Virus record (IMG/VR): IMGVR_UViG_3300031707_000173
Coordinates: 1 to 23,984 of that record
Strand: one strand, 5' to 3'
DNA length: 23,984 bases
From: a virus
Of the stretch, positions 3,722 through 19,054 are shown piece by piece. A program made the translations under genes and the position numbers. The number at the start of each line of letters is the position of its first letter. Within the stretch, counting starts at the first letter, position 1. The notes below the pieces were generated by a model, which was not told the DNA's origin, did not search any database, and saw only the letters and a program-made list of their open reading frames with translations.

Positions 3722-6259
3722 ATGTTTGGAGATAAAATAGGAAGAAATTATCGTTTGGATGTACTCAATCGTAACCTTGTGAGAACGATTCTTGAGGCAG
3801 GTGGGAATATTGTGCCTTTAATGATAAACTCATTAGATAGCAAAGGACTTGGATTATGTAACCCGTCTGTATTCATAGATAATGGTAAGCCTATGATGAT
3901 TCTTCGGAATGTTAATTATACACTTTACCATGCTGAGAATACTCAGGCTTTTAATAGCAGGTATGGTCCATTATCTTATCTTAATCCTGAAAATGATATA
4001 CACCTACGTACATGGAATTTCTTATGCGAATTGGATCCAAAGACATTAGCAATAGCCAAGTATTGGAAAATAGATACATCCAAGTTGGACAAGGAACCAC
4101 TTTGGGAGTTCATAGGTTTGGAAGATGCAAGACTTGTGCGTTGGGATGGAAAACTATACGGTATAGGTGTACGAAGAGATACGACTACGAATGGTCAGGG
4201 TCGTATGGAGTTCAGTCAACTGCAGATCACAGGTAGGCATAGTATTGATAATACTATTGAGCATCTAGAAGTCAAGGAAATAACTCGTAATCGTATTGAG
4301 AATACAGACCCAAAAGCTTATTGTGAGAAGAACTGGATGCCTGTACTTGATATACCAAATACATTTGTTAAGTGGGTTAATCCTACGGCAGTAGTAGAAG
4401 TGGATTTGGAAACTAATACTGCCAAGCATATTTACCACGGTAAGGATACAGATATTATTCCTGGTTTGCCTTTCCTGCGTGGTGGATCACAGGTAGTTAC
4501 CTGGGGAGAATTTAGGTTTTGCCTGGTGCATGAATGTGATTTGTTTAGTAATGTATTGGAACAGAAAGATGCTACTTATTTACATCGTTTTGTGGTTTGG
4601 GATAAAAATTGGAATGTTATTAAAATAACAGAACCATTTTCGTTTATGGGTGGAGAGATTGAATTTTGTTGTGGGGCAGCCATATATGAGGATAATTTAT
4701 TATTAACTTTTGGTTTTCAAGATAATGCGGCTTATTTGTTAAGAGTACCTAAACTTATGATACCATGGGTATTAGGATTGGTAGAAGAGTTTGACTGGGG
4801 ATTAATAGAAGAGAATCAGTGGTTTAAGAAAGGATTGATTAGGGAAATTAAAATAGAAGATCAATATCAAAGATATTTTAAGGTAGAAAAAGGAGATGTC
4901 GTACTTGATCTTGGAGCCAGTGTTGGTCCATTTGCCGTACATATACTCCCGCAGAAGCCTTCTGAGATTATATGTTTAGAACCTCATCCTGAGTTATTTA
5001 AAACCTTGATTAAGAATACTGCTCGATCCTCAATTATTAAGTGTCATAATTTAGGAATTGCTGCAATAGACGGAGTAGTTGAAACAAATAGCTTATTTGA
5101 TCCTGACTCAGGTTTGGTATCAGACAAAGTAAATAAAATGACCAGTATTCGTTTTGATACATTAGTTGAGAATATACCAGACATAGACTTCTTAAAGATT
5201 GATATTGAGGGTGGGGAGTATGATGTATTTACCGAAGATAATTTGGCATGGATTGCTACACACGTTAAAAAGATAGCAGGTGAGTTACATTTACATACTC
5301 CTGAAGAAAAAGAGAAATTTCGTAAATTCCGTGATTTATACTTTAAAGCATTCCCAAACTTTCAGGTTCATGCTAACAATGGGGCAAATATTAAGTTTCA
5401 GATATGGGATGATAATTTTGCTGATTTATATGGATTTGTTACTTTCTATATAGATAATCGTCCTAACAGGTGGGCAGTAACTCCAGTGGCATCATTGGAG
5501 ATAACTACTATCATACCAAAGGGTGGTTGTCCTATTGATTGTGTATTTTGTCCACAAGATGCTTTAAAAGCCAGATATGATGATCCTATAAAAAAGCTGA
5601 CTCTTGAGAATTTTAAAGAACTTATTGATAAAGTTCCAAAGGAAATTATTATAACATTTGCTGGTTTTACGGAACCGTTCTTGAATAAGGATTGTGCAAA
5701 TATGATAGTATATGCTAACGAGCAGGGACACAGGGTTTCTTTATTTACTACAGCAGTAGGTATGACAATGGATGATTTCTTTAAGATAAGACATATACCA
5801 TTCCAAAGTGCTCAAGGAGGATTTGTGTTACATCTACCTGATATAGAAGGTTATTCTAAGCATAAAATAACTTCTGATTATGTGGATTTGTTATCTCAGA
5901 TAATGACATCAGGAATAGCCTACCAGGCAGTTTCAATGGGAACTCCTCCTGAAAATATTAGAGTAATGTTTCCAGAGTACATAAAACAGACTATGTGGTG
6001 GAGAGCAGGTAATTTGAAAGCAGGGGTTGTTGATTACAATCAGGTAAGAGTTAAGTCAGGTTCAATTACTTGTGGATGTCAGGAAAAGGTTTATCATAAT
6101 GTATTACTTCCAAATGGAGATATAACACTTTGTTGCATGGATTATGGATTAAAACATATACTTGGTAATTTATACAAGCAAGAGTATAAAGACATTGTAC
6201 CAGTTTATAATGAACCTTTTGAATTATGTAAATATTGTGAAAATGGAGTATCAATATGA
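3722..6259 (+). CDS. Three-domain enzyme: beta-propeller glycosidase-like + FkbM-type methyltransferase + radical SAM/SPASM
   Basis: This is a single 845-residue reading frame. Residues about 40-345 resemble a five-bladed propeller of the GH43/GH130 kind, with CNPSVF (46-51), GLEDARLV (132-139) and EKNWMPV (202-208). Residues about 375-560 are a SAM-dependent methyltransferase of FkbM type, with VVLDLGASVGPFA (393-405), EPHP (420-423) and LKIDIEGGEYD (491-501). Residues about 588-845 are a radical SAM domain with C603-x3-C607-x2-C610 binding the 4Fe-4S/AdoMet cluster and a GFTEP motif (648-652). It ends in a SPASM-like Cys-rich tail (C784, C786, C804, C805, C836, C839) for extra clusters. The likely role is modification of a glycan or glycopeptide. 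No frameshift or stop separates the domains. The next gene overlaps by ATGA. The propeller's catalytic identity is uncertain; the other two domains are clear. Confidence 0.85.
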   Translation: MFGDKIGRNYRLDVLNRNLVRTILEAGGNIVPLMINSLDSKGLGLCNPSVFIDNGKPMMILRNVNYTLYHAENTQAFNSRYGPLSYLNPENDIHLRTWNFLCELDPKTLAIAKYWKIDTSKLDKEPLWEFIGLEDARLVRWDGKLYGIGVRRDTTTNGQGRMEFSQLQITGRHSIDNTIEHLEVKEITRNRIENTDPKAYCEKNWMPVLDIPNTFVKWVNPTAVVEVDLETNTAKHIYHGKDTDIIPGLPFLRGGSQVVTWGEFRFCLVHECDLFSNVLEQKDATYLHRFVVWDKNWNVIKITEPFSFMGGEIEFCCGAAIYEDNLLLTFGFQDNAAYLLRVPKLMIPWVLGLVEEFDWGLIEENQWFKKGLIREIKIEDQYQRYFKVEKGDVVLDLGASVGPFAVHILPQKPSEIICLEPHPELFKTLIKNTARSSIIKCHNLGIAAIDGVVETNSLFDPDSGLVSDKVNKMTSIRFDTLVENIPDIDFLKIDIEGGEYDVFTEDNLAWIATHVKKIAGELHLHTPEEKEKFRKFRDLYFKAFPNFQVHANNGANIKFQIWDDNFADLYGFVTFYIDNRPNRWAVTPVASLEITTIIPKGGCPIDCVFCPQDALKARYDDPIKKLTLENFKELIDKVPKEIIITFAGFTEPFLNKDCANMIVYANEQGHRVSLFTTAVGMTMDDFFKIRHIPFQSAQGGFVLHLPDIEGYSKHKITSDYVDLLSQIMTSGIAYQAVSMGTPPENIRVMFPEYIKQTMWWRAGNLKAGVVDYNQVRVKSGSITCGCQEKVYHNVLLPNGDITLCCMDYGLKHILGNLYKQEYKDIVPVYNEPFELCKYCENGVSI

Positions 6260-7476
6260 CAGAGCTATTAAATTACATATCAGATACTAAGAACGGACAA
6301 TACAATTTTGCGTTGGGACGTTGGTATGAAAGTCAGGGTCATACGGCGGCTGCTGCAGGTTATTATATTCGTACTACCGAGTTTGCAAAGGATGAGTTAC
6401 TTATTTATGAAGCTCTACTGAGAATTTCTATTTGTTTATTAAGTCAGGGAGCAAGGGTATTTGTTTCTAAAGGAGTATTGTTGAGAGCTATTGCATTAAA
6501 ACCTGAAAGACCAGAAGCCTATTTCTTAATGAGTCAATGCTGTGAACATAATAAGGATTTTTCAGAGTCTTACACCTATGCTTGCTTAGGGGAGAGGATT
6601 TATACAAATAAAGAAACACCAAAATTAAGAACTAATGTTGGTTATCCTGGTGAGTATGGATTTATATTTGAGAAAGCCGTATCAGGTTGGTGGCTTGGTT
6701 TAGTAGATGAATCTATTCATTTATTCCGTCAGTTGGATAAAAGGGCAGATATGCTTCCTATTCATATTGTTTCTGTAAAAAATAATTTGAAAAATCTGTC
6801 AAATAACTTTAAGAATCCTCTTACCTATTATGGTAATATGTATGAAAGACTAAAGGTAAAATTTAAGGGAGCAAGAGATATAGAACGCAATTATTCCCAA
6901 TGCTACCAGGATATGTTTGTACTTACTATACTCAATGGTAAAGAGAATGGTAAATTTGTAGAGATAGGTTGTGGAGATCCATTCTTTGGTAATAATACAG
7001 CATTACTTGAAGAATTTGGATGGACTGGTATTTCAATAGATATAGATTCAAATATAACAAAGAAATTTGCTGAACAGAGAACAAGTCAGGTAATTACGGC
7101 AGACGCAACCAAACTGGATTACTCATCGCTCCTCACAGGAGACTACGACTATTTACAGATAGACTGTGATCCAGCCCTAAATTCGCTTCAAGTGTTATTC
7201 AGGATACCATTTGAAAAATGTCGTTTTGCCATAATTACTTTTGAACATGATGCTTATAGTAATGATAGTATAGGGATTAAAGAGAGAAGTAGAGTGTATT
7301 TACATTCATTAGGGTATAAAATGATAGTAGGAGATATTGCTCCTGATAAGTATATGAACTTTGAGGATTGGTGGATTCATCCTGATCTAACTGATGGAGT
7401 ACCATGTGATTTGATTACCTATTCTGGGGAGGATAAAACAAGGAAGGCTGATGAATATATGTTAAATTTAGGATAA
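6256..7476 (+). CDS. FkbM-like SAM methyltransferase with helical TPR-like N-terminus
   Basis: This 406-residue protein starts in an ATGA overlap with the fusion enzyme, so the two are probably co-translated. Residues about 10-160 are helical with TPR-like character (ALGRWYESQGHTAAAAGYY, then LRAIALKPERPEAYFLMSQC). Residues about 212-390 form a methyltransferase-like domain: YSQCYQDMF (213-221), GKFVEIGCGDPFFGNNT (232-248) as the SAM loop, SIDID (260-264) and DYLQIDCD (298-305). The CYQDMF/FVEIGCGDP combination is typical of FkbM-like enzymes, which O-methylate sugars. The TPR part may hold the acceptor or the neighbouring fusion protein (inference). Its stop overlaps the next start by one base (taATG). 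Confidence 0.8.
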   Translation: MTELLNYISDTKNGQYNFALGRWYESQGHTAAAAGYYIRTTEFAKDELLIYEALLRISICLLSQGARVFVSKGVLLRAIALKPERPEAYFLMSQCCEHNKDFSESYTYACLGERIYTNKETPKLRTNVGYPGEYGFIFEKAVSGWWLGLVDESIHLFRQLDKRADMLPIHIVSVKNNLKNLSNNFKNPLTYYGNMYERLKVKFKGARDIERNYSQCYQDMFVLTILNGKENGKFVEIGCGDPFFGNNTALLEEFGWTGISIDIDSNITKKFAEQRTSQVITADATKLDYSSLLTGDYDYLQIDCDPALNSLQVLFRIPFEKCRFAIITFEHDAYSNDSIGIKERSRVYLHSLGYKMIVGDIAPDKYMNFEDWWIHPDLTDGVPCDLITYSGEDKTRKADEYMLNLG

Positions 7477-12127: not shown

Positions 12128-13246
12128 ATGAAGACAAGCGTTGATTTAATTGGTATGGATGGAAGAGCCAGAGGTGAAGTTGCCAGAATGTTGGCAGGTA
12201 AGAAACTGGATCCTCACAGAATGCGTCCTTTCATCGGTGAAGATGGGGTGACCTCATATTTTACCGTTTTTAAAGGCGGTGATCCTGAGGACATAAAGAG
12301 CTACCAGGTAGTTCCAGCTCCCATGAATGTGAATGCTACTCTCCGTAGGGATGAGTGGAAAGTCCTTGATGAGGCAGTAGTAAGAGCTAAAGATTACAGA
12401 CTCGGTGGAGTTGAGGATCTTATTTCAAAAGGTCTTACCTTCCAGCTGGGAAATGCTATGGGAACTACGATGCTTGAATGGCATGATATGGTTGGTGATC
12501 TGGAAGCTGATATCTCTATGGACGGTGTAAGCCGGGCTCTTGGTAACAGACCAGATTTTCAGTTCAACTATATTCCAATACCGATCGTTCACGTTGATTA
12601 TGAAATTAACTTGAGGGAATTGGAAACAAGTAGGAACATGGGAAACCCCCTGGATACCACAATGGCTGAAAGAGCCACTCGGGCGGTTATGGAGAAATTG
12701 GAGAATATGCTTTTCACCAACTTAACTTTCAGTTTTGGGGAGAAAGATTCTCACAACCGGAATACCATATACAGTTATGTCAATCACCCAAATAGGAATC
12801 AGATTAGTTTGGTTCATGCTTGGAATGATTCGGCTACTACTGGTAAGGACATTGTTGACGAGATCATAACCTGGAAACAGGCTAGTATTGATGATCGTCA
12901 TTACGGTCCATGGCAGATTTATATTCCACCGGCTTATGAGACTGTATTGGATGAGGACTACGTTGGTTCTACTCCTGATACTGCTCCGAATCAGACTATA
13001 CGTCAGAGGATTATGGCTATTGATAGGATTGCCGGTATTAAGGTTATTGATACCTTGGCAGCTAATACCGTTCTGTTTATTCAGATGACTCCTGATGTAG
13101 TTCGTTTAATTCAGGGTCTTCCTCTGCAGAACGTTCAGTGGGAAACTGAAGGGAAGTTCGTTGAGAAATTCAAAGTTCTTACCATACAGGTTCCTCAGAT
13201 TAGGGCTGACGCTGATGGAAGAAGTGGAGTACTCCATATAGCATAA
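12128..13246 (+). CDS. Major capsid protein
   Basis: This 372-residue protein follows the decoration gene by 19 bases, with AAAGGAG ahead of ATG 12128. Features of HK97-fold capsid proteins in the DUF2184/encapsulin-like group include an N-terminal stretch with LRRDEWKVLDEAVVRAKDYR, the VHVDYEINLRELETSR segment, a helix that ends the DTTMAERATRAVMEKLEN region, and a C-terminal IQGLPLQNVQWE plus KVLTIQVPQIRADADGR ending. It has no obvious N-terminal scaffold domain of its own, in keeping with a separate scaffold upstream. It should be the most abundant product of the window. A small hairpin follows its stop. Confidence 0.82.
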   Translation: MKTSVDLIGMDGRARGEVARMLAGKKLDPHRMRPFIGEDGVTSYFTVFKGGDPEDIKSYQVVPAPMNVNATLRRDEWKVLDEAVVRAKDYRLGGVEDLISKGLTFQLGNAMGTTMLEWHDMVGDLEADISMDGVSRALGNRPDFQFNYIPIPIVHVDYEINLRELETSRNMGNPLDTTMAERATRAVMEKLENMLFTNLTFSFGEKDSHNRNTIYSYVNHPNRNQISLVHAWNDSATTGKDIVDEIITWKQASIDDRHYGPWQIYIPPAYETVLDEDYVGSTPDTAPNQTIRQRIMAIDRIAGIKVIDTLAANTVLFIQMTPDVVRLIQGLPLQNVQWETEGKFVEKFKVLTIQVPQIRADADGRSGVLHIA

Positions 13247-13291: not shown

Positions 13292-13657
13292 ATGGAACGT
13301 ACTAAAAGTACTGAACCAGCGATAAGACCTGATGGTAAGATTCGTTGGAAGAAAGAAGGTAGAGGAGTTTTCCGTCTGAAAAATCATATTTACCGACCAG
13401 GAGAAATCTTTTGGGCTCGTCCCGATGAGATATCACCTCAGTTCAGAGATTTAATAAAACCGGTTGATGTTGAGGCAGAAACAATATTAGCCTCTGCTCC
13501 GGTTAAAGAAGAACTTGTTATAAAACCAGCCTACTCCAAGGTAAAAAGAGAATCCAGTAATTTTTGGGATATACTTGATGGGGAAGGAAAACAAGTTAAT
13601 GAAAAGGCTTTAAGAGAGGAACAGGCTGACGAGTATTTGGAATCATTAGCAAAATGA
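13292..13657 (+). CDS. Small conserved-looking phage head protein, function unknown
   Basis: This 121-residue protein is basic at the N-terminus and acidic at the C-terminus. The core (GRGVFRLKNHIYRPGEIFWA, then ISPQFRDLIKPVD) has the look of small proteins found just behind phage capsid genes, with an 'R..N..Y.PGE.F.A...I....RD' pattern, but I cannot give it a function. No clear SD precedes ATG 13292, unlike its neighbours, so it may depend on a local transcript or be poorly translated. It ends in an ATGA overlap with the first gene of the glycan cassette. Confidence 0.6.
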   Translation: MERTKSTEPAIRPDGKIRWKKEGRGVFRLKNHIYRPGEIFWARPDEISPQFRDLIKPVDVEAETILASAPVKEELVIKPAYSKVKRESSNFWDILDGEGKQVNEKALREEQADEYLESLAK

Positions 13658-14379
13658 TCTGGAAAGTTCCTCCAATCTGGGAAGATGGAGAGGTATGGAT
13701 ACTTGGTGGTGGACCATCTGTTACAAAGCAGTTTGGTATACCTGATGAAGTGGTAAATGATGTTATCAACAAAGTTCAACCACCAAGTGCCTATTCTCCC
13801 TACATGGAAGCCATTCATAAAAAACACGTGATTGGAATAAATGTATCCTTTCTGATTGGTAAATGGATAGATATGTGTTTCTTTGGGGATGTTAAATTTT
13901 TTAGACAATATAAAGAAGCTCTGGCTTCTTGGCCTGGTTTGAAGGTGGCTTGTGATCCAGGAGCATCAAGGCTTACTTGGATAAAGTACCTGGAGAGAGA
14001 TACTTCCCACTCTCTTGGGATTAGTAAGAGAGTTAATGCCGTATCATGGAATCTCAATAGTGGAGCGGCTGCTATAAGTCTGGCAGCTCATACGGGAGCG
14101 AAAAGAATCATATTAGTGGGATTCGATATGTCTCTGAATGGTAATGGTAATAAGCATTGGCATAAGTTATATGAACCAATACTTTCGCAACAAGATATAA
14201 GAGGTTTAAGGAAAATAGGGATTAGACATAAAACTGCCCCAATGCCTTTTGGAAGACATTTGAGAGGATTTCCACAGATGCTAAAAGATGCCCAAGCAAG
14301 AGGTATTGAAATTATTAATGCTTGTCCTGAAAGTGCTATAACCGTATTTCCTAAATGCAATGTAAAGGATCTATTATGA
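13654..14379 (+). CDS. DUF115 / MAF-like Rossmann protein, likely sugar-transfer related
   Basis: This 241-residue protein has VWILGGGPSV (14-23) as a glycine-rich nucleotide-binding loop, INVSFLIGKWIDMCFFGD (62-79), SGAAAISLAAHTGAKRIILV (136-155), GFDMS (156-160) and a KHWH motif (167-170). This set matches the DUF115/MptE-like family, which includes motility accessory factors and resembles GT42 sialyltransferases; many phage copies exist without tested function. It probably handles a nucleotide-sugar or transfers an acidic sugar. It opens the seven-gene cassette by ATGA overlap with the head gene before it. Confidence 0.75.
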   Translation: MIWKVPPIWEDGEVWILGGGPSVTKQFGIPDEVVNDVINKVQPPSAYSPYMEAIHKKHVIGINVSFLIGKWIDMCFFGDVKFFRQYKEALASWPGLKVACDPGASRLTWIKYLERDTSHSLGISKRVNAVSWNLNSGAAAISLAAHTGAKRIILVGFDMSLNGNGNKHWHKLYEPILSQQDIRGLRKIGIRHKTAPMPFGRHLRGFPQMLKDAQARGIEIINACPESAITVFPKCNVKDLL

Positions 14380-15020
14380 AAGCTTTTATTATAAATTACA
14401 ATCGTTTGACATTACCACGCAATATGGCCCTATGGTTATTTGATAGAGGAGTAGAGCCTATCTTTATAGATAATAAGTCAGACTATCCTCCTTTGGTAAA
14501 ATACTATAGCAACTGCCCTTTCCAAGTTCTTTTTATGAAGGCTAACTATGGTCATAAGGTATTTTGGGATTGTAAATTATATGAGTTGCTTAAACCTAAT
14601 GAAAGATACATTCTAACTGATCCTGATTTAGACTTGGAGGGAATACCAGATGATTTTCTTACCGTATTAAATGAAGGGTTAAATAAATATAGGGAGTATA
14701 ACAAATGTGGTTTCTCCCTTGAAATAAATGATTTACCTGACACACCTGAGGGTAATCTTATAAGAAATCAAGTTGAACCAAGATATTGGAGAAGAAGGAA
14801 AGGTAAGATGTATTTTAATGCACCTATTGATACCACCTTTGCCTTATATAGAGAAAGGTCTAATAGATATTTTCATGAGGCATTAAGAACAGATAGACCT
14901 TATACGGCAAAACATATACCTTGGTATTATTATCATATTAGTGAATTACCAGAAGATGAACAATACTATTACTCAACTGCCAATGGAAGTTCTAGTGGTA
15001 AACAAAGATTAGTGCCATGA
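14376..15020 (+). CDS. GT-A type glycosyltransferase with DPDLD motif
   Basis: I choose ATG 14376 (MKAFIINYNRLTLPR), which gives an ATGA overlap like its neighbours and has AAAGGA about 6 bases upstream, over ATG 14355, which would add seven residues. The product has 214 residues: IINYNRL at the start, IFIDNKSDYPP (29-39), and ILTDPDLDL (79-87) as the DxD-type metal/nucleotide-sugar site. A C-terminal YHEALR-like helix and a WYYYHISELPEDE tail follow. It looks like a compact GT2-related transferase seen in environmental phages. The sugar and acceptor are unknown. Confidence 0.75.
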   Translation: MKAFIINYNRLTLPRNMALWLFDRGVEPIFIDNKSDYPPLVKYYSNCPFQVLFMKANYGHKVFWDCKLYELLKPNERYILTDPDLDLEGIPDDFLTVLNEGLNKYREYNKCGFSLEINDLPDTPEGNLIRNQVEPRYWRRRKGKMYFNAPIDTTFALYRERSNRYFHEALRTDRPYTAKHIPWYYYHISELPEDEQYYYSTANGSSSGKQRLVP

Positions 15021-15790
15021 AAATAGCTGTTGTATTATCATATTACGAGAGACCTTTACAATTGGATGAGACATTGTTTTCAATGACTAAAACCAATTAT
15101 AAAGATTTTGAGGTAGTTATTGTTTCAGATGAAACACAGCAACCTTACAAGGTACCAGATCTACCATATAAGACAGTTATGCTAAATTGTAGTAAGAAGA
15201 CAGATAGATGGGTAGGTGGTATGATGGTACTTAATACTGGATTTCTATATGCTTTAAAACAGAAGGCAGATGTTGTGCTTATACAAAATGCAGAATGTTA
15301 TCATGTTGGTGATGTAATAACAAAGGCAGCTTCGGTGACTGATAGAAATTATATTTCATTTGGTTGCTATAGCCTTGATGAAGAAACTACTTTTTCTAAA
15401 CACGATATTTTTGAAGTTATAAAGAAAAGTGATAGAGGAGCAAGGATAGATGGTGAGAATGCTTGGTATAATCATCCTACAAAAAGACCAGTTGGTTATC
15501 ATTTTTGTTCTGCCATAACGGCTGCTAATTTGAAAAAACTTAATGGTTTTGATGAAAGGTATATGGATGGAGTAGCTTATGATGACAATGATTTCCTTAG
15601 TAGGATTCGTTTGCTAAGGTTAAGAATTGACATAACCGAGGATCCTTTTGTAGTACACCAATGGCATTTTAGCGGACATGGAGCAATTCCAAATAAAAGT
15701 GCTTTAATTGAAAAGAATAAAGAATTATATATGATGTTAAAGAGAAATGGTAATATAAGAGCAAAACATTTAATAACTGAAGATTTATGA
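15017..15790 (+). CDS. Family 2-like glycosyltransferase
   Basis: This 257-residue protein has VVLSYYERPLQLDETLFSM (5-23) as the usual GT2 opening. FEVVIVSDETQQ (31-42) follows. QNAEC (90-94) stands where a DxD is expected, so metal binding may differ. GFDERYMDGVAYDDNDF (177-193) is the acceptor/catalytic-base region with an acidic cluster, and HQWHFSGH (214-221) comes after it. The acidic motif plus HxWH is typical of GT2 and GT27-like transferases. It has ATGA overlaps on both sides. Confidence 0.8.
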   Translation: MKIAVVLSYYERPLQLDETLFSMTKTNYKDFEVVIVSDETQQPYKVPDLPYKTVMLNCSKKTDRWVGGMMVLNTGFLYALKQKADVVLIQNAECYHVGDVITKAASVTDRNYISFGCYSLDEETTFSKHDIFEVIKKSDRGARIDGENAWYNHPTKRPVGYHFCSAITAANLKKLNGFDERYMDGVAYDDNDFLSRIRLLRLRIDITEDPFVVHQWHFSGHGAIPNKSALIEKNKELYMMLKRNGNIRAKHLITEDL

Positions 15791-16521
15791 GACATCCTTT
15801 AAAAGTAAGAAAACAGTTGACTCGATTCTATATATGGGTTACCAGTGATTGCAATCTAAGTTGTCCTTTCTGTATTCAGAAATGGGCAATGGAAGATACG
15901 AAAGGTTACCAAATGTCTTTGGAAGAAGTTCACTATATCGTAGATTCCTGTAAGGCAAGAGGGTTACATTTTGATATTATTGAAATTACAGGTGGAGAGG
16001 CTTCACTTTGGAAAGGGATAAAAGAAGGAGTTCCATTATTTGCTACAATATGTGATATGGTTACCTTAGCCACAAATGGAAATAATCCTGAGTTGATTAG
16101 ATCACTTGGATTAAAAACCTTTATATTATCTCAAAGTCAAGCCACACCAGCACAAATGAAACAATATGAAGACATTGTGCATACATTGACTATTAATAAT
16201 CATCAGCATAAGAAGATGCCAGAGAAACCATTTGATAATGTATTACCCTCTTCTTGTGCTACCACGGTTACACCGCCTATACCTTGTGTACCTAAGGGCG
16301 TTCCAAGAGGTGGTCTACCACAGGCTACCTTTGAGTATGTAAAAGGGAAGGTTTATAATTGTCCTGATTGTTACACCCATCTTCAATACGTTCCAGCTAC
16401 GGATGATATAGTATGTGACTTTGAAGATGATTTTGTAAGCAAGTTTTACAATAAGAATTTTAATAAAGAGATATGTAGATATTGTCTTGGTAATCACAAA
16501 GTTTGGAATAAAATAGCATGA
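15787..16521 (+). CDS. Radical SAM enzyme with auxiliary-cluster cysteines
   Basis: This 244-residue protein has C22-NLS-C26-PF-C29, the CxxxCxxC site for the 4Fe-4S cluster that cleaves SAM, and ITGGEAS (67-73) as the GGE motif. The C-terminal half has C157, C167, C192, C195, C210, C230 and C233, enough for one or more further clusters as in SPASM/twitch enzymes. It could perform oxidation, epimerisation or C-C chemistry on a sugar or peptide. It is short for a SPASM protein, with about 65 residues between the cysteine pairs and the core. It lies inside the glycosyltransferase run with an ATGA overlap upstream and one base downstream. Confidence 0.85.
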   Translation: MRHPLKVRKQLTRFYIWVTSDCNLSCPFCIQKWAMEDTKGYQMSLEEVHYIVDSCKARGLHFDIIEITGGEASLWKGIKEGVPLFATICDMVTLATNGNNPELIRSLGLKTFILSQSQATPAQMKQYEDIVHTLTINNHQHKKMPEKPFDNVLPSSCATTVTPPIPCVPKGVPRGGLPQATFEYVKGKVYNCPDCYTHLQYVPATDDIVCDFEDDFVSKFYNKNFNKEICRYCLGNHKVWNKIA

Positions 16522-16522
16522 T

Positions 16523-17323
16523 ATGATACCTAAAATTTGTCACTTTATTTGGACTAACAAGTCCTCGATGTCTTGGATGCAGACATTATCTGTCCTTTCT
16601 TTCAAAAGGTATAATCCTGATTGGGCAATAAAAATTCATCTGATAAAGCAAATACCACAGGAACTTGGAGCAAACGTCTACGTTCCAGAATATACTGGAG
16701 AAGATCATTTTCAGAGTCTATCTAATTTTGATATAGACTTACATGATATATATGATGAAGGTATAGCAAATGATAAACATGGAATCCAAGTTTCAGATAT
16801 ACTGAGAATGAGATTATTACATAGGGTAGGTGGTGTTTATTCTGATTTTGATACATTATGGTTAAAACCTATGTCTAAATTTTATGAGGTATATACGGAA
16901 AATTTTGAGACAACGATTTGTCAACATGCTGGAGATAAGCACCATAATGCTTCTAATCTTGTATCAGAACCTAATGGTTCTTTTCTGGCAGCAGTCATTG
17001 CTTTACAAAACAGAATAAATCGACCACCTTATGATTATCAGGCTTATAACAATGCTTTATTAAACAGGTGGTTTCGTAATTGGGATAGAGTAAAGAAAAC
17101 GTATCCTAGATTGTTAAAGATTGATTATGAAACTTTTTATCCTTATGATGTCTATCATCCTGAAAGACAGTGGAAGGAGGATAACCTATCTTATCTGGTA
17201 GAGAAGACAGTGGCAGTTCATTGGTTTAATGGTAATAATTTAAGTAAGGAATTTATAAATAGAAATGATTACACAATACCATGTTCTATAACTTCAATTC
17301 TTAAAAAGGAAGGATATCTATGA
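16523..17323 (+). CDS. Glycosyltransferase with DXD sugar-binding region (GT32/OCH1-like)
   Basis: This 266-residue protein starts with PKICHFIWTN, the usual opening of the family that uses nucleotide sugars in capsule and glycolipid synthesis. SDILRMRLLHRVGGVYSDFD (91-110) is its hallmark, with the DFD metal site at 108-110. The C-terminus has AVHWFNGNN, matching the conserved HW motif. It is the most confidently named transferase of the cassette. There is no membrane segment or signal peptide, so it acts in the cytoplasm. Confidence 0.87.
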   Translation: MIPKICHFIWTNKSSMSWMQTLSVLSFKRYNPDWAIKIHLIKQIPQELGANVYVPEYTGEDHFQSLSNFDIDLHDIYDEGIANDKHGIQVSDILRMRLLHRVGGVYSDFDTLWLKPMSKFYEVYTENFETTICQHAGDKHHNASNLVSEPNGSFLAAVIALQNRINRPPYDYQAYNNALLNRWFRNWDRVKKTYPRLLKIDYETFYPYDVYHPERQWKEDNLSYLVEKTVAVHWFNGNNLSKEFINRNDYTIPCSITSILKKEGYL

Positions 17324-18027
17324 TAGCTCTTATTACACCGACTGGAGGACGTCCAAAGCAAATTGAACTTTGCACAAAGTTTATGCTAAATCAGGATTAT
17401 GCTGGTAAAGTACTTTGGGTGCTTGTCGATGATGTAGTTCCTACCAGTATTAAAAATATACCTTTAATATTTAAAAGTAATTGGAATATTCAGAAGGTAT
17501 ATCCTACTCCCAAATGGAAGGTGGGAGGAAATACTCAGGCAAGAAATTTACTGGAAGGAATAAATGTTGTAAATAGATATGAAGATATAACTGCTGTTTT
17601 TATAATAGAGGATGATGATTATTACTCTCCTCAATACTTGCGTTTAATGAATGAGAGGTTAAAAGGGTATGACGTGGTTGGACAAATTAACACCGTATAT
17701 TATAATCCAATATACAGAGGATGGATGAGGAATGGTAATGATAAGCACGCAAGTCTCTTTCAGGTAGCCTTTACTCCAGAGGTGCTTGGTATTTTCCAAA
17801 TGGCTTGTAAGACACCAAGAGCCTTTATAGATATGCACTTCTTTAGATTAGTTAAAACCAGAAAGGTTAATTTGTTTAATGGTAAGGATTTAGCGGTGGG
17901 TATTAAAGGATTACCTGGTAGATCAGGAATAGGAATGGGACATAGAGCAGAAATTAGAATGACTCCTGATCCTGAGTTTGTAAAGTTAAAAGAGTTAATT
18001 GGTGATGATTATATGTATTACTTATGA
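17320..18027 (+). CDS. GT-A type glycosyltransferase with EDDD motif
   Basis: This 235-residue protein starts MIALITPTGGRPKQIELC, a GT2-like N-terminus. VLWVLVDD (31-38) and FIIEDDDYYSPQYL (94-107) form the nucleotide-sugar and metal sites. The C-terminal KGLPGRSGIGMGHR segment resembles an acceptor loop. It overlaps both neighbours by ATGA. It is probably a transferase; an alternative is an inactive GT-A fold, because no clear acidic base can be placed. Confidence 0.72.
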   Translation: MIALITPTGGRPKQIELCTKFMLNQDYAGKVLWVLVDDVVPTSIKNIPLIFKSNWNIQKVYPTPKWKVGGNTQARNLLEGINVVNRYEDITAVFIIEDDDYYSPQYLRLMNERLKGYDVVGQINTVYYNPIYRGWMRNGNDKHASLFQVAFTPEVLGIFQMACKTPRAFIDMHFFRLVKTRKVNLFNGKDLAVGIKGLPGRSGIGMGHRAEIRMTPDPEFVKLKELIGDDYMYYL

Positions 18028-18689
18028 ACCAACCGATATTCATAACAGGAGTAGAAAGATCAGGAAGTTCACTGATTGCAAAGATATTTGATATTTGTCA
18101 TGTGCATGTTGGAATGGTTTCTACTATGTATGAAAATATTGGGTTTAAGTTAATTATGGATAGTTATCTGGATACAAATGGATCTTTGTTTCCAGAAACT
18201 AAGTCATTAAAAATACCTGTTGATTGGAATGAATTAATATTAAATCTATTAAAGAGTGAAGGGTATAAAGATGGACCTTGGATATGTAAAGGATCTCGTA
18301 TGACTCAAATGTGGCCAGTTTGGCATTATGCTTTTCCAAACGCCAGATGGATAATTGTAAGAAGAAAGACTTCTGATATTGTTCAATCTTGTATGAAAAC
18401 CGGATACATGAGAGTATTCAAGGAGCCGGCGAATCTGATTAGAATAAAGGTTAAAACTGAGGAGGAAGGTTGGTTGTGGTGGACCCACCAGTATGAAAAG
18501 AAGTTTGTTGAAATGATTGAAGCCGGAGTGAATTGTAAACAGGTTTGGCCTGAAAGAATGGTACATGGCGATTATCAACAGGTCTACGAAACACTTGAGT
18601 GGTTAGGTTTGAAGTGGAACAGTAAAATAGTGGAAACGATTGATCCAAGGTTAATTAAAAGTAGGAGGAAAGAAGGATGGCATATGTAA
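18024..18689 (+). CDS. PAPS-dependent sulfotransferase-like protein
   Basis: This 221-residue protein has FITGVERSGSSLIAKIF (6-22), the P-loop-like 5'-phosphosulfate motif, and RWIIVRRKTSDIVQSC (108-123), the 3'-phosphate motif with Arg and Ser. WICKGSRM (86-93) corresponds to the conserved core helix. It would move sulfate from PAPS to a hydroxyl, most plausibly a sugar made by the preceding genes. PAPS must come from the host, since no ATP sulfurylase or APS kinase gene is seen. Its last 13 bases overlap the connector gene, whose SD lies inside its coding sequence. Confidence 0.82.
   Translation: MNQPIFITGVERSGSSLIAKIFDICHVHVGMVSTMYENIGFKLIMDSYLDTNGSLFPETKSLKIPVDWNELILNLLKSEGYKDGPWICKGSRMTQMWPVWHYAFPNARWIIVRRKTSDIVQSCMKTGYMRVFKEPANLIRIKVKTEEEGWLWWTHQYEKKFVEMIEAGVNCKQVWPERMVHGDYQQVYETLEWLGLKWNSKIVETIDPRLIKSRRKEGWHM
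18663..18668 (+). promoter_or_regulatory. SD (AGGAGG) for the connector gene inside the sulfotransferase CDS
   Basis: AGGAGG ends 8 bases before ATG 18677. It is encoded within the sulfotransferase C-terminal codons (SRRKEGWHM) and fixes the start of the connector gene, showing that the cassette end and the structural operon are stitched together without spacer. Confidence 0.7.
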
Positions 18690-19054
18690 CCCCAGATGAA
18701 GTAATAGGAGTAATGGAGGAATGCTCCTTAACATCCGACCAAGTTGATCCATATATCTTATCAGCTCATTTATTTGTTACTGATATTCTGAGTGGTAGTG
18801 GATTATCAGCAAGCCGGTTGAAAGATATTGAAAAATATCTTGCAGCTCATTTTATTGCAAGTATTCACAGTCGCCCTTCTTCTCGAGAGAAAGTAGGTGA
18901 GGTTGAAGTTGAATACTCCAATACTAAGTTTGGAGAAGGTTTAAAATCTACCCCATATGGACAGATGGTTAGCATGTTAGATACTACTGGTTTAATTGCG
19001 GCATCAGGGAAAAGAGCTGCAACATTTTTTGTACCTAAAAGCTTTGACGAATGA
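18677..19054 (+). CDS. Head-tail connector / adaptor protein (DUF4054-type)
   Basis: This 125-residue protein starts MAYVTPDEVIGVMEECSL and has LSASRLKDIEKYLAAHFIAS and GLKSTPYGQMVSMLDTTGLI, the core pattern of phage head-tail adaptors that dock under the portal. It begins 13 bases before the sulfotransferase stop, in another frame. It marks the return to ordinary structural order after the glycan cassette: in related phages this gene follows the capsid gene within one or two small genes. The last codon region overlaps the next start by ATGA. Confidence 0.8.
   Translation: MAYVTPDEVIGVMEECSLTSDQVDPYILSAHLFVTDILSGSGLSASRLKDIEKYLAAHFIASIHSRPSSREKVGEVEVEYSNTKFGEGLKSTPYGQMVSMLDTTGLIAASGKRAATFFVPKSFDE

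Follow-up and report, generated by a model that had tools for sequence, protein, structure and literature searches.

A sugar-enzyme locus with conserved ends and a variable interior in the head operon of uncultured phages: a probable virion-glycan locus

Why would a phage carry a set of sugar-modifying enzymes in the midst of the genes for its head? The question is raised by the IMG/VR virus record IMGVR_UViG_3300031707_000173, all 23,984 bases of which were analysed (the window) and whose ends truncate a fibre gene and the tape-measure gene. At positions 13654-18689 on the + strand seven consecutive, contiguous open reading frames (ORFs), g1 to g7, lie between a small head gene (sm) and a gene of the DUF4054 family, as the original prediction had described. 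The seven genes represent one allele of a locus that starts with a Maf/GT42-fold transferase (G1, which is g1 in the window), ends with a sulfotransferase (ST, which is g7) and varies in the genes between them. This is probably a virion-glycan locus, a variable part of the head operon whose enzymes would work in the host cytosol while virions are assembled and make a glycan, sulfated or with another cap, for a head protein. The original prediction of a sulfated glycan, modified by a radical S-adenosylmethionine (SAM) enzyme and attached to a virion protein, was therefore right in direction and is supported in part.

In the window, the gaps from sm through the gene after DUF4054 are -4, -25, -4, -4, +1, -4, -4, -13 and -4 nt. 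The ATGA overlaps that had been noted are thus found at most junctions (the stop of sm and the start of g1 share one) but not at all of them. The AGGAGG at 18663-18668, within g7, is the ribosome site for the DUF4054 start at 18677, which agrees with the shared Shine-Dalgarno (SD) sequence predicted for the exit of the block. The block is AT-richer than its surroundings, with a GC content of 34.7% versus 40.1% for the preceding head genes and 39.0% for the following genes. Promoter and terminator scans of the region gave fewer matches than shuffled sequences and carry no weight.

Related phages (loci L002-L252) were collected by scanning a viral collection with the capsid, g1, g4 and g7 proteins and by running a capsid profile on viral and genome contigs; ORFs were called mechanically and labelled by profiles built from the window proteins, and a lineage was defined by 90% capsid identity. 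The gene order in the relatives is major capsid protein (MCP), sm, G1, interior, ST and DUF4054. Both G1 and ST are present in 71 of the 102 loci with a complete capsid-to-DUF4054 interval, only G1 in 12, only ST in 4 and neither in 15, and the locus is carried by 56 of the 66 capsid lineages with a complete interval. When only loci retrieved by the capsid alone were counted, which were not selected for the cassette, both ends were found in 37 of 54 lineages, only G1 in 3, only ST in 4 and neither in 10, so that 44 of the 54 carry one end or both. The gaps in the relatives have a median of -4 nt and are at most 20 nt in 96% of cases, leaving no promoter-sized gaps; sister phages with a separately promoted cassette were sought among the relatives and none was seen. 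This conserved, gap-free placement, together with enzymes that nearly all look soluble, supports the proposal that a glycan pathway is co-expressed with the virion genes. In two relatives (L035 and L036) the block lies directly downstream of DUF4054 instead of upstream. The block is not a product of chance, since its ends are found again in dozens of related phages. A chance insertion or an assembly artefact of a single contig was considered and rejected, as parts of the block occur at 100% identity in L018, L068 and L069 and other alleles occur in many lineages.

These tailed phages form a large, uncultured group. No relatives of the sulfotransferase were found among 50,697 named phage records, and in named phages no relatives of sm and only distant relatives of the capsid were found; a capsid relative from Brevundimonas is without the locus. 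The L058 small protein used as a query likewise matched nothing in named phages. A sulfotransferase scan of genome contigs gave no match, and the L174 capsid used as a scan query gave no relatives. Capsid matches were found in metagenome-assembled genome contigs of many phyla that may be mis-binned viral contigs, and for this reason no host is claimed.

The original prediction also named, as a check, a search for the same cassette in related phages. The block ends and their placement do recur, but the seven-gene composition is not conserved. The interior ranges from 0 to 11 genes, and the G1-to-ST span from 2.0 kb with zero genes between (L148, which has an enlarged G1 of 448 aa) to 10.3 kb with 11 genes (L023). 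G1 and ST follow the capsid gene no less closely than other virion genes do: in 43 phages the pairwise distances correlate with those of MCP at 0.75 for G1, 0.68 for ST, 0.69 for DUF4054 and 0.74 for the tail tube. The interior comprises 163 families at 40% identity, and the phage pairs without any common interior family make up 73% at a capsid distance of 0.3-0.4, 88% at 0.4-0.5 and 98-100% beyond. Single exchanges can be seen in close pairs. The window and L071 agree at ~90% identity from the first base of g6 (17320) onward and do not match upstream of it; L002 and L003 differ by one extra gene, with 92% identity to either side of it; L079 and L095 have unrelated centres between flanks that are both ~80% identical. 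The interior is swapped like that of an O-antigen locus while the ends stay fixed. The features of the window and the related genes discussed below are collected in Table 1.

Table 1. Positions of the locus, its boundaries and related genes (plain positions refer to the window; others are given as record:positions)
Feature	Position	Strand	Evidence or remark
Major capsid protein, MCP (DUF6260/Major_capside)	12128..13246	+	Pfam 1.7e-20; query for sister phages
sm, 121 aa, small two-domain head protein, candidate acceptor/docking protein	13292..13657	+	no Pfam/PHROG match; two-domain model
G1 (g1), Maf/GT42-fold transferase, 241 aa, conserved first gene	13654..14379	+	phrog_4603 'alpha-2,3-sialyltransferase' 4.2e-30; Pfam MptE-like below cut-off; model
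g2, possible GT-A-like glycosyltransferase, family unknown	14355..15020	+	invariant DPD motif only
g3, GT2-like glycosyltransferase (weak)	15017..15790	+	Glyco_transf_7C 1e-3, Glycos_transf_2 2e-3
g4, radical SAM enzyme, rare optional interior gene	15787..16521	+	PF04055 Radical_SAM 5.6e-9
g5, DXD glycosyltransferase (Gly_transf_sug), optional interior gene	16523..17323	+	PF04488 1.3e-7
g6, GT2 glycosyltransferase, invariant EDDD	17320..18027	+	PF00535 clear only in homologues (17/20); weak PDB match 5tze 'Glycosyl transferase'
g7/ST, PAPS-type sulfotransferase, conserved last gene	18024..18689	+	PF13469 Sulfotransfer_3 5.5e-8
DUF4054 gene, right boundary of block	18677..19054	+	PF13262 1.3e-6; SD inside g7
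sm N-domain fusion	L126:12189-14306
sm N-domain fusion	L164:12514-14634
sm N-domain fusion	L139:12534-13481
sm N-domain fusion	L146:12181-13125
PMG1_0008, G1-like	L253:4480-5076		in head operon
PAJU2 ORF010, G1-like	L254:4486-5055		in head operon; annotated 'structural protein'
P1 pmgO, G1 relative	L256:3962-4624		in pmg gene cluster; annotated 'putative morphogenetic function'

The interior genes encode enzymes that build and tailor sugars. In 192 representatives the commonest interior Pfam families were GT2, GT11 (fucosyltransferase type), Exostosin and extra sulfotransferases among the transferases, GDP-mannose 4,6-dehydratase, epimerases, RmlD, UDP-glucose dehydrogenase and DegT aminotransferase among the sugar-nucleotide enzymes, and, apart from these, methyltransferases (Methyltransf_24/FkbM/TylF and others) and radical SAM enzymes (8). 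The radical SAM modification that was originally made part of the product is not general to the locus, since the family found in the window occurs in only 3 loci (the homologues of g4 are in L034 and L193). The product of g2 gave no Pfam, PHROG or PDB match and has neither fold nor family evidence; its 10 homologues are 57-69% identical to the window copy. A hydropathy test predicted no membrane segment for 453 of the 459 interior proteins, one for 6 and two or more for none, and the same test found two or more segments in 60 other genes of the same loci, showing that it is able to detect multi-pass proteins. Because the interior proteins are not multi-pass and the gaps are about -4 nt, assembly of the glycan is most likely late and cytosolic, with a soluble acceptor.

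These results bear on whether the locus instead remodels the host surface (lipopolysaccharide or capsule) for superinfection exclusion or serotype conversion. Phages do encode such enzymes, and the interior types (GT2, GT11, GDP-mannose dehydratase, methyltransferases) match those of O-antigen loci; bacterial O-antigen and capsule loci also have conserved flanks around a swapped interior of the same enzyme classes. They differ from the present locus in that no flippase, polymerase or phosphoglycosyl transferase was seen here, and in that the enzymes here look soluble and are encoded in a viral head operon. A lipid-linked (Wzx/Wzy or ABC) polysaccharide locus requires a phosphoglycosyl transferase and multi-pass proteins, but Bac_transf was not found in 20 records of 53-79 kb in which controls were detected, and no multi-pass protein was found among the 459 interior genes. 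The position fixed among the head genes, the late expression with them, the linkage of the locus to sm, and the presence of a tyrosine integrase in only 2 of the 20 records also argue against a role at the host surface, which we consider unlikely.

If the glycan is destined for a protein, the conserved first gene is the candidate for attaching it. The AlphaFold2 model of G1, which has a predicted local distance difference test (pLDDT) score of 93, best matches the Maf flagellin glycosyltransferase of Magnetospirillum (5mu5), with Z 14.3 over 190 residues and a root-mean-square deviation of 3.7. The next matches are the CstII/CstI sialyltransferases at Z ~12 (CstII 12.2) and M. jannaschii HPPK at Z 10.5, and clearly unrelated folds score ~4. 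Since its PF01973 score is 22.3 bits, under the cut-off of 34.6, G1 is described as having a Maf-like fold and is not filed as a member of the Maf family. Maf enzymes O-glycosylate Ser/Thr of flagellin and accept cytidine monophosphate (CMP)-activated N-acetylneuraminic acid (CMP-Neu5Ac) and 3-deoxy-D-manno-octulosonic acid (CMP-Kdo) (PMC11339370). G1 shares its fold with the central domain of Maf, and a cytosolic transfer to protein is likely for G1 as well; unlike Maf, it consists of one domain of 241 aa and lacks the N- and C-terminal ones, and it is found in phages, adjoining a head gene instead of flagellin. With the GT42 sialyltransferases G1 shares the fold and the nucleotide-site motifs (GxGPS, SG and GxD are common to the G1 and CstII sequence profiles), but it is only 16% identical to them, with a sequence E-value above 0.05, and the 20 long records gave no CMP-sugar synthetase; the donor would therefore be made by the host. 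A 710-aa protein at L028:4570-6702 consists of G1 fused to domains that by eye resemble a methyltransferase and a GT2-type transferase.

A fold like that of Maf and the sialyltransferases is not expected if the enzymes glycosylate phage DNA (hypermodified bases), nor are a terminal sulfotransferase and the late timing of a head operon. Virus-encoded DNA-hypermodifying glycosyltransferases are known, as cited in PMC12619734. In the 20 long records, which are possibly fragments, a thymidylate-synthase-like hydroxymethylase was not found, with controls detected; Tet_JBP was not found either, but its control was also undetected. A DNA target seems highly improbable.

Relatives of G1 also occur beyond this group. 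In unrelated HK97-type phages with a PF05065 capsid, the capsid gene is followed by a gene for a small protein, often with a Ser/Pro/Ala-rich tail, and then by a G1 relative. In PMG1, a cultured D3-group Pseudomonas phage, the genes PMG1_0006 to 0008 encode in this order the major head protein, a small protein of 95 aa whose tail is rich in Ser, and the G1-like protein, followed by the head-tail adaptor. The D3-group phages thus resemble the present ones in gene order and in the GT42-like gene, and differ in an unrelated capsid type, in having neither a sulfotransferase nor a variable interior at that spot, and in a methyltransferase a few genes downstream. The G1-like protein of PAJU2 may itself be virion-associated and that of P1 may act in sugar transfer. 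The annotations of these two genes favour a reading in which G1, or G1 with sm, is mainly structural or morphogenetic in head completion and the glycan enzymes accumulate in a permissive neighbouring spot, and one phage of the group (L130) has G1 without interior genes or ST. G1 nevertheless retains the GT42 motifs, some phages of the group manage without it, and this reading leaves unexplained both the interior and an ST that is also conserved, with a divergence like that of MCP. We judge it quite unlikely.

The small head protein, or its counterpart in the unrelated phages, could serve as acceptor or docking factor. Of the 56 lineages that carry the locus, 52 have the full-length two-domain sm, compared with 2 of the 10 that lack the locus (Fisher 3e-6, an optimistic value that ignores the kinship of the lineages). 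The lineages without the locus mostly have no sm at all, and L144 and L174 have the N-domain alone. The model of sm, of low confidence (pLDDT 74, predicted template modelling score 0.39), has two small domains and a linker, of which the N-domain is predicted to be strand-rich and the C-domain beta-beta-alpha with GKxxNEKAL; it has no meaningful PDB match. In four loci (L126, L139, L146 and L164) the N-domain is fused to larger in-locus proteins (~1e-20), putative glycan enzymes that adjoin a free full-length copy, from which it is argued that sm and the enzymes meet physically. The L126 fusion has a Capsule_synth domain (E 2e-4), a family that includes Kdo transferases; the L146 fusion matches no Pfam family, and its position suggests that it is an enzyme. 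The complete loci of the fusion group have no sulfotransferase before DUF4054. Diverged tandem duplicates of sm were observed in one branch (L002, L003, L009, L010, L073, L074, L077 and L094).

The conserved last gene accords with the PAPS-type (3'-phosphoadenosine 5'-phosphosulfate) sulfotransferase recognised originally. ST scores 33.8 bits for Sulfotransfer_3, above the cut-off of 27; G9, R12-S13-G14 and R114 are invariant and S122 is conserved in at least 90%, which we take to be the PAPS pattern of a phosphosulfate loop and an R with an S eight residues on. The closest solved structures are protein-tyrosine sulfotransferases, and it might be supposed that ST acts directly on a virion protein, sulfating tyrosine or another residue, and has no functional tie to the sugar enzymes, the more so as 4 complete loci have ST without G1. 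The structural match is weak (E 2e-4) and common to the whole family, however, and ST adjoins glycan enzymes in most loci, so that direct sulfation is very unlikely and the sulfate would be placed on the glycan rather than on tyrosine.

Several results weigh against a head-protein glycan attached by way of sm. L175 has a full sm and no locus, and L028 and L191 have the locus with no detectable sm. There is no known acceptor sequon, and no Ser/Thr is invariant in the conserved C-domain of sm. G1-like genes are also found away from the capsid gene (P1 pmgO and Citrobacter phage phiNP), and the family match of ST does not separate carbohydrate from tyrosine acceptors.

A virion-glycan locus would work as follows. 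The small protein sm would join the growing head or present the substrate, and G1 would add the first sugar to a protein Ser/Thr from a host-made activated donor, possibly CMP-Kdo or CMP-nonulosonate. Enzymes of the interior, glycosyltransferases and tailoring enzymes (g2, g3, g5, g6 and the radical SAM enzyme g4 in the window), would extend and decorate the glycan, which ST would then cap using host PAPS. Swapping the interior between constant ends would give new coats with unchanged attachment and capping chemistry. More tentatively, the locus may be a serotype-like modular glycan island, with a fixed attachment enzyme, a capping sulfotransferase and a reshuffled interior, by which related capsids would wear different sulfated coats on a dedicated small head protein. 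Both capsid and fibre had been proposed as targets; the head is the likelier site and fits better, through the co-varying small protein, and the fibre is less likely.

Virion glycosylation is established in mycobacteriophages, where capsid and tail-tube proteins are glycosylated (Freeman et al. 2023, as cited in PMC11256854, PMC12619734 and PMC11600133). Phage sugar genes were originally said to sit usually apart from the structural genes, but the Corndog-group (cluster O) mycobacteriophages have four such genes between portal and protease (PMC4351075). Like Corndog and Che8, the present phages encode glycosyltransferases and a methyltransferase, and like cluster O they carry the genes inside the structural operon; in the window and its relatives the glycosyltransferase genes are embedded in the head operon without gaps. 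The mycobacteriophages have a fixed set of about four genes, whereas here 0-11 interchangeable genes are found across dozens of lineages, and the locus, which opens with a Maf-like gene and closes with a sulfotransferase gene, lies between the capsid and the head-tail genes. In the literature searched, no phage head cassette with a sulfotransferase turned up, nor did this locus design. The new elements are the design of constant ends around a variable interior, the presence of a sulfotransferase and of a Maf-like enzyme at the start, the linkage to a small head protein, and the wide distribution among uncultured phages. If the proposed role is true, capsid glycosylation would extend beyond a few mycobacteriophages, as a trait that is old, widespread and diversifying rapidly in uncultured phages, and sulfated virion glycans would be new chemistry for phages. 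It would bear on why head surfaces vary, whether for protection, for attachment to surfaces in the environment or for recognition by predators or hosts, and provide a source of soluble, modular enzymes for protein glycosylation. The D3-group phages, which are in culture and have the G1-like gene and the small protein, allow a direct test.

A second pair of sugar- or methyl-modifying genes is found in the window at 3722-7476, between the fibre end and the portal. It encodes an 845-aa protein (FkbM methyltransferase, radical SAM and SPASM) and a 406-aa protein with tetratricopeptide repeats (TPR) and a methyltransferase-like part, and its GC content of 34.9% is as low as that of the cassette. 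Among the relatives listed, the pair is upstream of the portal only in the near-identical contig L006. It is possibly a fibre-directed counterpart of the cassette. The fibre itself (3-2990) has long collagen-like QG-x-QG repeats and a C-terminus that resembles an intramolecular chaperone (S74 type by eye).

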